Source of the DNA: Phyllobacteriaceae bacterium UBA1940
Lineage (GTDB): Bacteria > Pseudomonadota > Alphaproteobacteria > Rhizobiales > Rhizobiaceae
NCBI GenBank assembly: GCA_002336975.1
Contig: DDFA01000127.1
Span: 1 to 18,898 of the forward strand
Length of the DNA: 18,898 nt
Reading direction: 5' to 3'
This document shows, piece after piece, positions 11,567 to 18,898 of the stretch. The position numbers and the translations under genes are program-made. The notes beneath the pieces were generated by a model that worked only from the letters and a program-made list of their open reading frames with translations, was not told where the DNA came from and did not search any database. The number at the start of each line of letters is the position of its first letter. Positions within the stretch are counted from its first letter, which is position 1.

Positions 11567-11722
11567 GTGACCATTCTTTCAGCACTCGGCCACTATGTCG
11601 TGGCCCTTCGCGAATTCGTGTCGCCGACCTATCGTCCGGAGCGCTACTACATGCGCGGGCCCGGCCCCGCATGCGCGCGCCGCGGCGCAATCGCCATGAA
11701 CATTGGCGGCCGTCTGCGCTGA
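11567..11722 (+). CDS. Possible small hypothetical protein
   Basis: A candidate 51-residue protein starting with GTG at 11567 (reads MTILSALGHYVVALREFVSP...). The same frame stays open further upstream, with ATG codons at 11477 (81 residues) and 11519 (67 residues). The first half looks protein-like (a short hydrophobic helix followed by SPTYRPERYYMRGPGP), and the C-terminus is basic and Cys/Arg containing. GGG runs lie close before the GTG. I recognise no domain. The evidence is coding-like residue choice and a gap that otherwise holds nothing. It ends seven bases before the converging DUF1850 gene. It could equally be a chance reading frame. Confidence 0.35.
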   Translation: MTILSALGHYVVALREFVSPTYRPERYYMRGPGPACARRGAIAMNIGGRLR

Positions 11723-15594: not shown

Positions 15595-15671
<77 letters not shown>

Positions 15672-15757: not shown

Positions 15758-16816
15758 TTATGAGGCGTCGTAGCTCGCGCCTAAGAAGGGAACGGCCTTC
15801 TCTACGTCCTTCTTCGTGCGGAGTGTGATTTCGAGGTCGCCGGTGCCAAAATGCCCGATCTGGCGCACGTCGCGCATCATGGCCGGGTCAAACTCAACCG
15901 CTTCGGGGTCAAGGTTCAGGTACACGCGCACAACGCGCTTTTGGTTGTAGACTTGCACGGACGCGAAGTTCCTGTTCCGGCGAAACGCCATGTAGTGCTT
16001 CTGTGGGTGAACCGTCACATCGTCGCCTAGAGCCCTAAGCTTTCCGGCTAGTTCGTCATAGATTGCCCGAAGGTCTTTCGGGGCGGCTTCTATCTTGTCC
16101 TTCACAGTCACCACGGCCTTTTGAGCGTGAGGCTTGCCACCGCCTGCACGGTCGGGGACGGCCTCCTTCAACTCTTCCGCCAACGTCGGCAGTACCAAGA
16201 GCCGGTGGATTAGCCCTTCAACGGTATCGAGGATGACGGCAATCTGTTCTTTCGTTGGTGCCCAACAACGGTGCGCAGCGGCGTTTCCAGCCTTCACCAC
16301 GGGGTCTAGAATCTCACGCTCTTGCGGCGAAAGCTTCCCCTCGTCCTCCAAAGCTTTAAGACCTTTGGTGAAGTTGCCTTTGTCGCCGACGGTCAGAACA
16401 ATCAGGCGGTCAATCAGAGTTCGAGAACCGAAGGTTGCGAGATAGTGCGACCCGGTTTGAAGCGACTTGTAAATTTCAGCGGAAATTTCCCTTAATGTAT
16501 CGTCAGGCAGGTCCTCAAACCATGGCGGTGAAGCGCGGTATGTCACGGGTGGGTAGATTTCCTCTTCCCAGATTGCCTCGGCATATTGCTTCCCGGTTGA
16601 AGGGTCTTCGTAGTGATCAATGTGTTCAGAAAAATGAGTCTTTCGGACAAGAGCTACATTTTCGCATCCGCAACATTCAGCGACGAGGTAACGAGAAGTC
16701 AGGCTGGTGCCACTTCTCTTGTCGTAATTTTCGGCCGTATGTTCAGCACGAACGTAGTGCCGCGTCAGACGCTTGCATTGGTTGCAGAAGAACTTTTCGA
16801 CTGCTGGTTCAGACAT
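15758..16816 (-). CDS. Zinc-ribbon + DUF4145 + DUF5655 domain protein
   Basis: A 352-residue soluble protein of unknown function, with three recognisable parts. (1) A four-cysteine zinc ribbon: CNQC at 11-14 and CCGC at 48-51. (2) A DUF4145-like helical domain at about 100-210, with SRTLIDRLIV and the VKAGNAAAHRCWAPTKEQI segment, where G-N-x-A-A-H is the conserved signature. DUF4145 is a HEPN-related domain frequent in restriction-modification and defence loci. (3) A DUF5655-like C-terminal domain at about 250-350 (VTVHPQKHYMAFRR, VVRVYLNLDP, GHFGTGDLEITL), associated with nucleic-acid and defence proteins. I start it at ATG 16816, whose first eight bases overlap the upstream gene's end (ATGTCTGA), so the two are coupled. 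Composition is less G+C-rich than the rest of the window. No membrane spans. Likely a partner of the TIR-like protein. Confidence 0.75.
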   Translation of the reverse strand: MSEPAVEKFFCNQCKRLTRHYVRAEHTAENYDKRSGTSLTSRYLVAECCGCENVALVRKTHFSEHIDHYEDPSTGKQYAEAIWEEEIYPPVTYRASPPWFEDLPDDTLREISAEIYKSLQTGSHYLATFGSRTLIDRLIVLTVGDKGNFTKGLKALEDEGKLSPQEREILDPVVKAGNAAAHRCWAPTKEQIAVILDTVEGLIHRLLVLPTLAEELKEAVPDRAGGGKPHAQKAVVTVKDKIEAAPKDLRAIYDELAGKLRALGDDVTVHPQKHYMAFRRNRNFASVQVYNQKRVVRVYLNLDPEAVEFDPAMMRDVRQIGHFGTGDLEITLRTKKDVEKAVPFLGASYDAS

Positions 16817-18107
16817 TTGCCAACTGCGCCCCTGAGACCCGCAAGATTGCTTCGATTTCTGCGCCGATCCTGTTCGGGATTTCCGCTGCCTGTGCGATCT
16901 GGACATATTTGAAGGTGTTCAGGTCAAACGGTACTTTGTCCGCTTCGTTCTTCGGCTCAAACAGGAAAATGAGTTTGTTTTGCTCGTGATGTTTGAGCGC
17001 GTAACCCGCTTCAATGTACACGTTGGGACGCTGCCCGGTTAGATCGCAAATGATGATGTCGGCTGAAGCTATGGCCTCATACATCTTGGAATGAATTGGG
17101 AACGTGCCGCCTTCTTCAGTTCCCATGTCCACAAGCTCCAACGAAATGCCGTGCGTTGCGAGCACGTTGGCCAAGGTTTGGCGCAGTTGTTGAAGGCGAA
17201 GGCCTGCACGATTGAAAGCGTCGTCCGGCGCATCTTGGGTAGGATACCAGCGCGCCAAAAAGACCCGTTTGGGAATCCGCGACTGCGCAGCCTTGAACGT
17301 TTCCAAAAGCTGTTCGGCGGGTGACAACCGGTTCAGAAGGCTGGTAATGCCCTGTCCTCCAAGCCAATGCCCAAGGCGGTCAAGAACTGCAACCGACGCC
17401 AACACCTTCTGTTCGTGGTTATCGCCCGGCGCTTCCTTCCACACACGCGCGGCAAGTTCGAAGAAGCCGTATGTCCGGCAAAGCGATGGGTGGTTCACGG
17501 TCAGGCGTATCGCGATTTCCGAAAGGCCAGCGAAGAGTTCTTCGGCAAACGCGGTCAGCGTTTGGCGATCTTGGGAAATCGCCGGGTCCATCGCAATGAG
17601 GTTCCGGGCGGACTCCCAAAGTGCCGTAAGTGGCCGCTCACCAAACTTCGCACGGGTTGGTGCTGCCAAACCCTTGAGGCGTTCCGAAAGCAACCTCGTC
17701 AGGTGCAAATCGGGGCTATAGGCGAACTCATTGTCGGGCAGCATCGCATGGGCTGGGTTCTGCCCAAGAAGCAATTGAAGGCCGTGTTCTGACTCCAAGG
17801 GAAGCGCCGTACTGTTGATCGTATGGAAGATCAAGGATTCGGCAAAGTCGTCCGCGTCGTTGGCCGCATCGCCAAGCAGGATCATGCAGAAAGGGGCTAG
17901 GTACTTTGTCGGCGTAAGCTCATCCTCGACAAGCTGTTCAGCCAAATGCAGCCGGTGGTTCCCGTCGATACGCCGCACAAGCTTGCCGTTCTTGATCGCC
18001 TCAAGTTGGTTCCGGGCCACACGAACACGCTGGATACGGCTTGTTTTGTTTGAATGGCGGCGGCTTATCTGGACAAGACTGCCAGCGGGGCTAGGGTCAG
18101 GACTCAT
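16809..18107 (-). CDS. DGQHR/ParB-like + TIR-like (NDT-fold) fusion protein, 5' end disrupted by IS
   Basis: The surviving reading frame encodes 432 residues. Residues about 25-120 resemble a DGQHR/ParB-type domain: IDGNHRLHLAEQL (47-59) and IFHTINSTALPLESEHGLQLLL (93-114, like the F-x-x-I-N-x-x-x-x-P-L motif). The middle (about 125-275) is helical and unassigned. Residues about 280-425 form a TIR-like or nucleoside-2-deoxyribosyltransferase-like domain: RVFLARWY, then ASADIIICDLTGQRPNVYIE at 347-366 with candidate catalytic Glu366, then LIFLFEP and VPFDLNTFKYVQI. Similar domains serve as NAD- or nucleotide-degrading effectors in antiphage systems. The first ~45 residues are too short for a whole DGQHR domain. 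The ATG at 18107 appears to lie inside the IS5-family element, so residues 1-5 are probably IS-derived and the native N-terminus is lost. Overlaps the next gene by eight bases. Confidence 0.7.
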   Translation of the reverse strand: MSPDPSPAGSLVQISRRHSNKTSRIQRVRVARNQLEAIKNGKLVRRIDGNHRLHLAEQLVEDELTPTKYLAPFCMILLGDAANDADDFAESLIFHTINSTALPLESEHGLQLLLGQNPAHAMLPDNEFAYSPDLHLTRLLSERLKGLAAPTRAKFGERPLTALWESARNLIAMDPAISQDRQTLTAFAEELFAGLSEIAIRLTVNHPSLCRTYGFFELAARVWKEAPGDNHEQKVLASVAVLDRLGHWLGGQGITSLLNRLSPAEQLLETFKAAQSRIPKRVFLARWYPTQDAPDDAFNRAGLRLQQLRQTLANVLATHGISLELVDMGTEEGGTFPIHSKMYEAIASADIIICDLTGQRPNVYIEAGYALKHHEQNKLIFLFEPKNEADKVPFDLNTFKYVQIAQAAEIPNRIGAEIEAILRVSGAQLANV

Positions 18108-18532
18108 ATCCAGAACATGACGACGGCGGCGAGTGCGCAGGCGGAGAGGAAGATGTCAGCGCACCTGTCGTAGCGGGTAGCGACGCGTCGCCAGTCTTTC
18201 AGGCGGGCAAACATGTTTTCGATTTTGTGGCGCTGCCGGTAGAGGTCCTGGTCGTGTGGGATGGCCTTGTGGCGTTTGCGCCGGGACGGGATGCAAGGAA
18301 GAATGTCACGCCCGGTCAATGCGTTGCGGAACCAGTCGGCATCATAGCCGCGATCCGCCAGCAAAACCCCCGCGCTTGGCAAGGACGACAGCAGCGCCCG
18401 AGCCCCGATGTAGTCGCTGACCTGGCCCGCGCTCAGGAACAACCCGACCGGACGCCCGTTGCCGTCCGTGATCGCGTGAAGTTTCGAGTTCAGCCCGCCC
18501 TTTGTGCGTCCGATAAGGCGGGGACGCCCCCC
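18104..18532 (-). CDS. IS5-family transposase, second frame (orfB, read by -1 frameshift)
   Basis: The C-terminal catalytic part of an IS427-type transposase, about 143 codons, in the -1 frame relative to orfA. Seen are GRTKGGLNSKLHAITDGNG, then LLADRGYDADWFRNAL with the second catalytic Asp, and YRQRHKIENMFARLKDWRRV with the Y-R-E-K signature that contains the catalytic Glu. It ends SACALAAVVMFWI. An ATG at 18442 could start a shorter form, but conserved residues extend upstream to the slippery site. It is expected to be made as a fusion with orfA of about 250 residues. The first catalytic Asp is in orfA. No internal stops, so it may be functional. Confidence 0.8.
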   Translation of the reverse strand, partial: GGRPRLIGRTKGGLNSKLHAITDGNGRPVGLFLSAGQVSDYIGARALLSSLPSAGVLLADRGYDADWFRNALTGRDILPCIPSRRKRHKAIPHDQDLYRQRHKIENMFARLKDWRRVATRYDRCADIFLSACALAAVVMFWI

Positions 18533-18861
18533 TTTTGAGCGCGCAGGGATGACGCCGTGCGGTGCGCCTTGAGATGGGTCGCATCGATCATCAGCGTGCC
18601 CGTCTCGCGACCCTCGGCGGACAGTTCCGTCAGCATCCGCGCGAAGACGCCCATCCGGCTCCAGCGGACCCAGCGATTGTAGAGCGTCTTCGGCGGACCG
18701 TAGGCCGCAGGTGCGTCCCGCCAGCGTAACCCATTGCGATTGATGAAGATGATCCCACTCAGCACCCGTCGGTCATCGACCCTCGGCACTCCGTGCGACA
18801 GCGGGAAGAATGGCTTCAAGCGCTCAATCTGCGCGTCGGTCAGCCAGAACAGATCACTCAT
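18490..18861 (-). CDS. IS5-family transposase, first frame (orfA)
   Basis: The N-terminal part (123 residues to its own stop) of an IS427-type transposase: MSDLFWLTDAQIERLKPFFP, then GVPRVDDRRVLSGIIFINRNGLRWRDAP and YGPPKTLYNRWVRWSRMGVF (DUF4096-like DNA-binding region). The first catalytic Asp is in LMIDATHLKAHRTA. ATG at 18861 is chosen because GGGAGG lies five bases upstream; the GTG at 18867 overlaps that site. The last ~14 residues, after the slippery run at 18536-18527, are out of frame with the catalytic domain and are not homologous to it. Confidence 0.85.
   Translation of the reverse strand: MSDLFWLTDAQIERLKPFFPLSHGVPRVDDRRVLSGIIFINRNGLRWRDAPAAYGPPKTLYNRWVRWSRMGVFARMLTELSAEGRETGTLMIDATHLKAHRTASSLRAQKGGVPALSDAQRAG
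18527..18536 (-). promoter_or_regulatory. Probable programmed -1 frameshift site of the transposase
   Basis: The transcribed strand reads AAAAGGGGGG. In the orfA frame this contains A-AAG-GGG, matching the X-XXY-YYZ form of a -1 slippery heptamer, and orfB continues exactly in the -1 frame. Such sites regulate transposase production in many two-frame IS5-type elements. Confidence 0.65.
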
Positions 18862-18898
18862 CGGCACCTCCCTCGTGACGTTGCCCCCAGTTTCTATC

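Follow-up and report, generated by a model that had tools for sequence, protein, structure and literature searches.

Restriction systems are usually taken to act by cutting DNA, and TIR/NDT enzymes to be suicide effectors of a separate kind. In the BcgI layout of restriction-modification (R-M), a nuclease and an N6-adenine methylase share one chain and the specificity protein, S, is separate. Here we analyse a stretch of 18,898 nucleotides, the whole of which is called the window (contig DDFA01000127.1 of Phyllobacteriaceae bacterium UBA1940), and in particular two of its minus-strand genes, A and B, which together cover 15758-18107, their open reading frames lying where an original prediction, made from the sequence alone, had placed them. 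That prediction had seen in A and B a two-gene defence module composed of an effector and a sensor. Our results point elsewhere: gene A (16809..18107, 432 amino acids (aa)) is what a jumping element has left of the third gene of a restriction operon. It is rather probable that the third place in a compact M-S-A R-M operon belongs to A, which would be coupled to M-S and act as a glycosidase, with B as an accessory.

In homologous loci, M is a single chain joining an N-terminal HsdR-type PD-(D/E)XK nuclease domain to an N6-adenine methylase, S is the specificity subunit, and A joins a DGQHR (DndB/ParB-like) domain to a C-terminal N-glycosidase-type (NDT/TIR) domain. Eleven A loci were compared, eight from one scan of genome contigs, to which L014 (a plasmid), L021 and L027 were added. 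A Methylase_S gene or domain lies directly upstream of A in eight of them, as confirmed by Pfam in L003, L005, L006, L007, L009, L021 and L027, and by PADLOC in L004, where M and S form one fused protein; in L008, S is one gene away, with a YhcG nuclease gene in between. The distance from the end of S to the start of A, measured in six loci, ranges from -3 to +4, i.e., from a 4-base overlap to a 3-base gap. An M protein carrying both HSDR_N_2 and N6_Mtase is found in 7/11 loci (L003, L004, L006-L009 and L021), which represents all the M proteins scanned, and the seven share the D...ECK core and NPPF. S is separate in six of these loci and fused to M in L004, the arrangement of a nuclease-methylase single chain plus S being Type IIB-like. 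The M-S-A order is kept even at 22-26% A identity (L021). Over the seven loci, the identities of M and A go together (Spearman 0.88; 46/5040 permutations as good) and that of S varies from 16 to 61%; between L003 and L006, M is 70% identical, A 71% and S 19%. In the plasmid locus, A is fused to an N6 methylase, the methylase part of which shares 40% identity with the M of L021.

Several observations nevertheless weigh against A being the third component of such an operon. The 11 loci were sampled by convenience; in L010, the A of which is a fragment, M and S are both absent at E <= 1e-5, and L027 has S and A and no M. When the two distant loci are left out, the M/A identity correlation among the five close ones is weak (0.28, p 0.43), so that co-inheritance of M and A within the close group is not established. 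No A homologue is detected at E <= 1e-3 in the plasmid M-S loci L015, L016 and L017, and the third gene of the Flammeovirga M-S pair (L015:6974-12356) is an ABC/OLD-like ATPase, which suggests that the third gene behind an M-S core can be exchanged. Finally, within the close A family, the matches to DGQHR, DndB and TIR all stay under curated cut-offs.

Three of these loci deserve a description of their own. On the Leisingera plasmid, in a gene annotated as N-6 DNA methylase (L014:6963-9206), the methylase part runs directly into DGNHR and NDT/TIR-like parts, this chain having arisen either by natural fusion or through a deletion. The integrative element of L027 (2120-10569) encodes a 1016-aa protein matching RdRP (PF05183, 4.8e-10), and sigma-70 regions fused to the Methylase_S domain, followed by the A-like gene and an Mrr nuclease, without methylase. 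In the HTCC2083 defence island (L003:4316-21620), a tRNA-Ser and an integrase gene are found together with M-S-A-B, with a gene of 470 aa that matches nothing in Pfam, PADLOC or NCBIfam, and with Septu PtuA/PtuB and a SIR2 gene, beyond which a HerA-like ATPase can tentatively be read from the DNA. The integrase, Septu and SIR2 genes of this island, the only locus examined in this respect, support the defence setting that had been proposed for A and B.

Gene A belongs to a family that is sparse in genomes. As 566 protein clusters match gene A and 255 match gene B at E <= 1e-3 (for A, scoring was restricted to the 7997 candidates with the most shared words), both genes are more than chance open reading frames. 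Of 397 other genomes belonging to the phylum, just one has an A homologue at 1e-10, with an identity of only 25%. Gene A has no match in the phage collection, no DNA match in E. coli genomes and one partial match among plasmids; in IMG/VR, a single-sequence search gave no match and a profile search one. We aligned 91 sequences (alignment A1), namely 90 picked for diversity among 195 of suitable length and that of the window. In all of them, DGNHR, Glu199, Phe203, Asn207, Arg395-Trp396-Tyr397, Asp464, Gly467, Arg469, Glu475 and Asp504 are invariant, the residues from Arg395 onwards belonging to the C-terminal domain. Searched against PDB sequences, profile A1 gave 0 matches at E <= 1 and profile A2 gave two, weak and unrelated. 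Two homologues of 624 aa, P0267 and P0294, have a precomputed Pfam match to PF08364, one of them also to PF04760, perhaps because of a fusion or of a mis-called start.

The N-terminal motif, announced as DGQHR, actually reads DGNHR (residues 48-52 of gene A, 17952..17966, minus strand); the kinship itself is retained, as the intact homologue P0003 matches the DGQHR model TIGR03187 at E 1e-8, below the curated cut-off. The scores of P0003, P0243 and the A proteins of L021 and L027 are 35.2, 45.5, 28.6 and 25 bits, respectively, all under that cut-off of 58.85. The DGxHR motif is accompanied by the downstream F..N (F203, N207) in 91/91 sequences, and hhalign aligns A with the DndB set in the same motif register, with a probability of 23.8, three unrelated profiles giving 0.1-0.3. 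This similarity of the DGQHR region to DndB/DpdB is also what would be expected if A were a regulator and not an effector. Its DGQHR domain would then set the expression or activity of M-S, as DndB in phosphorothioation loci, and its NDT/TIR domain would be a ligand sensor or a dead enzyme. Two papers speak for such a role, DndB being presented in one as a regulator of phosphorothioate modification (PMC4507180) and proposed in the other to limit ATP (PMC12839542).

The C-terminal domain of gene A (residues 278-425, 16833..17276, minus strand) bears on this question. In the predicted structure, an NDT/TIR fold, the absence of which would have counted against the original prediction, is found where it had been anticipated (residues 280-425), and the best structural matches of this predicted fold are the DNPH1/MilB nucleotide N-glycosidases; the model is also consistent with a TIR-type fold containing a conserved Glu. 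The ADIIICDLTGQRPNVYIE motif noticed in the original prediction is present, and Glu366 (codon 17010..17012, minus strand; Glu475 in P0003), presumed to be catalytic, is the invariant Glu. Using hhalign, the domain reaches a probability of 84 to the NDT set and 63 to the CAP12-TIR set, two unrelated profiles giving 0.1 and 0.2. The gene A of the window matches the PADLOC model 'Effector TIR' at 1e-9, and Pfam CAP12-PCTIR (PF10137) at E 0.0058; with 17.1 bits for a cut-off of 24.7, membership of CAP12-TIR by Pfam was rejected. Four out of five scanned A homologues match CAP12-PCTIR with 11.8-14.8 bits, the fifth having no match. The position of DNPH1 Asp80 is occupied by Met in 87 sequences, Ile in three and Val in one. 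This replacement would suit a regulator, yet the invariance of Glu475, Asp464, Gly467, Arg469 and Asp504 is that expected of an active site, and we regard a regulatory role of A as unlikely.

The C-terminal domain of A would likely destroy a nucleotide or NAD. An NADase is preferred over a nucleotide hydrolase, because the Asp80 position is lost and because of the match to the TIR-effector model; this preference is only modest, given that nucleotide hydrolases provide the best matches, both by fold and among PDB sequences. A could also be a DNPH1/MilB-type hydrolase of modified deoxynucleotides, which would starve phages with hydroxymethylated DNA and thereby make up for the weakness of restriction against such DNA. 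The structural matches and the conserved Glu fit this proposal, the replaced Asp80 position does not, and we hold it to be quite improbable.

As the third component of the M-S-A operon, A could function as follows. M-S would mark self DNA and cut unmarked DNA, and A would ride on or listen to the M-S complex via its DGQHR domain. Unmarked DNA that is engaged yet not destroyed might be the trigger, upon which the NDT/TIR domain, with its invariant Glu, would cleave the glycosidic bond of NAD+ or of a nucleotide, and the cell or the phage would be halted. One tentative possibility is that, in this R-M family, a DGQHR adaptor directly connects the methylation-based reading of self and non-self with a TIR/NDT glycosidase, so that the enzyme, on meeting unmarked DNA, can turn from DNA cleavage to the killing or stalling of the cell through depletion of nucleotides or NAD. 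If true, a conserved operon would put DNA cutting and a TIR/NDT effector under one specificity subunit, M and A being kept while S diverges, and methylation-based self recognition would be linked to abortive infection.

Gene B (15758..16816, minus strand, 352 aa) is composed of a CxxC ribbon, a HEPN-fold DUF4145 and a YjbR-like DUF5655, according to Pfam, PADLOC and a structural model. The domains that had been recognised by eye are all recovered: DUF5655 (15767..16102) and DUF4145 match Pfam at 9.5e-15 and 1.9e-12, both above cut-off, and the zinc-ribbon-like pairs C11/C14 and C48/C51 (16664..16786) are kept in 78, 79, 80 and 80 of 80 aligned sequences. A HEPN fold is predicted for residues 102-224 (16145..16513), and residues 211-351 match PADLOC PDC-S18 at 1.2e-38. 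The catalytic Arg of the HEPN motif R-x(4-6)-H is missing (no Arg at 175-177 and His182 in 80/80), for which reason a role of B as HEPN RNase was rejected. With the whole model of gene B, Foldseek found nothing at E <= 0.001. On viral contigs, 28 loci contain B relatives, which cover the ribbon-DUF4145 part only.

The proposal that A and B constitute a dedicated effector-sensor pair draws on their contact in the window, where the 8-base overlap described earlier is exact (ATGTCTGA, 16809..16816), and in L003, where A extends to 11626 and B starts at 11619. One A and one B homologue also occur on long contigs of equal size (719016), a candidate co-location. A B homologue, however, adjoins A in only 1/11 A loci, the two genes being rarely adjacent by the second test set in the original prediction; A is tied to the S subunit and the N6-adenine methylase, a type I R-M operon without A ends in B (L020), and B remnants without A are found at L022 and L072. 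For these reasons, B does not look like a dedicated sensor of A. The pair was rejected as a self-contained system, and a dedicated pairing of any kind appears very improbable. The earlier reading of B is to be corrected: it is an accessory that joins different restriction operons, and it behaves as a travelling one. The operon of L020 (8671-17396) also contains genes resembling HEC-08/DUF3644 and a CBASS-type HNH effector, together with B, behind HsdS.

The copy of A present in the window is, as judged from its open reading frame and its alignment with P0003, a 5'-truncated remnant of a DGQHR plus NDT/TIR-like protein of ~540 aa. P0003 (541 aa), its nearest relative, is 94% identical over P0003 residues 115-541, and about 114 N-terminal residues are lacking. 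The break is adjoined by an IS5-family transposase (18104..18867, minus strand; NCBIfam NF033580), which is split between two frames, 18490-18867 and 18104-18442. Its stop codon overlaps the ATG of the remnant, and the transposase start is followed, 31 bases further on, by the end of the contig (18898). Truncation and transposase are hardly visible from raw letters, yet the original prediction spoke of 'an intact first gene'. The assembly has no second full copy of the IS5 element; its outer 24 bases (18875-18898) recur identically right where contig C14 of this genome begins, after which the sequence differs. In this assembly, which is 81% complete, we found no further copy of A or B, no close M (distant matches on C36 only) and no S match at E <= 0.001, the latter being a weak test as S diverges fast. 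The rest of the operon is therefore lost or unassembled, and, with the beginning of A gone and no close M, the module of the window is a remnant, in which gene B is intact.

The surroundings of both genes are as had been described. Their G+C content is 0.51-0.59 (600-base windows) and that of the rest of the window 0.60-0.72. A tRNA-Arg(CCG) detected by ARAGORN (15595..15671, plus strand) forms the other edge of this low-G+C stretch, 86 bases from the end of gene B, and no att-like repeats of the tRNA end are present within the window.

The absence of a match to any named system, already suspected, holds for the PADLOC, NCBIfam and Pfam libraries. No description of an M-S-DGQHR-TIR/NDT operon was found in the portions accessible of open-access PMC texts, including a Dnd reappraisal (PMC10853773), a BREX survey (PMC12839542), a domain review (PMC10952713) and a preprint on the TIR-like DUF4062 (PMC13174449). 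The M-S-A operon is rated as a new variant within R-M, the copy of the window being of lower direct value because it is a remnant.

Among the closest known systems are the Type IIB or single-chain R-M enzymes (BcgI, BsaXI), with which the operon shares a single chain for the nuclease domain and the N6-adenine methylase, and a separate S protein; RM.BsaXI (8w0p, E 3.2e-22) is the nearest solved relative of M by sequence, and gene A is what the operon adds. The methylation-associated defense system (MADS, a name taken from NCBIfam and PADLOC labels) is related through the M of L003, which resembles MAD2 (299.5 bits), and weakly through its S, which resembles MAD5 (31.6 bits). Membership was rejected, the cut-offs being 720 and 400 bits, and A matches none of the mads models at E <= 0.01. 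A shares with DndB and DpdB, the DGQHR proteins of Dnd and Dpd, the DGxHR motif and the QR...DG.HR...F..N register, but is accompanied by an adenine methylase and S and carries a glycosidase-type C-terminal domain. With the TIR effectors of CBASS/Pycsar, SPARTA and TIR-STING, it shares the fold and the invariant Glu of an ...NVxxExG motif, whereas its partner genes are M and S. From DNPH1/MilB, its best structural matches, it differs by the Asp80 position and not by the catalytic Glu. As for gene B, it resembles PDC-S18 and the DUF4145 HEPN proteins of R-M loci, such as those in operons with R-M described in PMC3710099, from which it is distinguished by the loss of the HEPN catalytic Arg and the addition of DUF5655.
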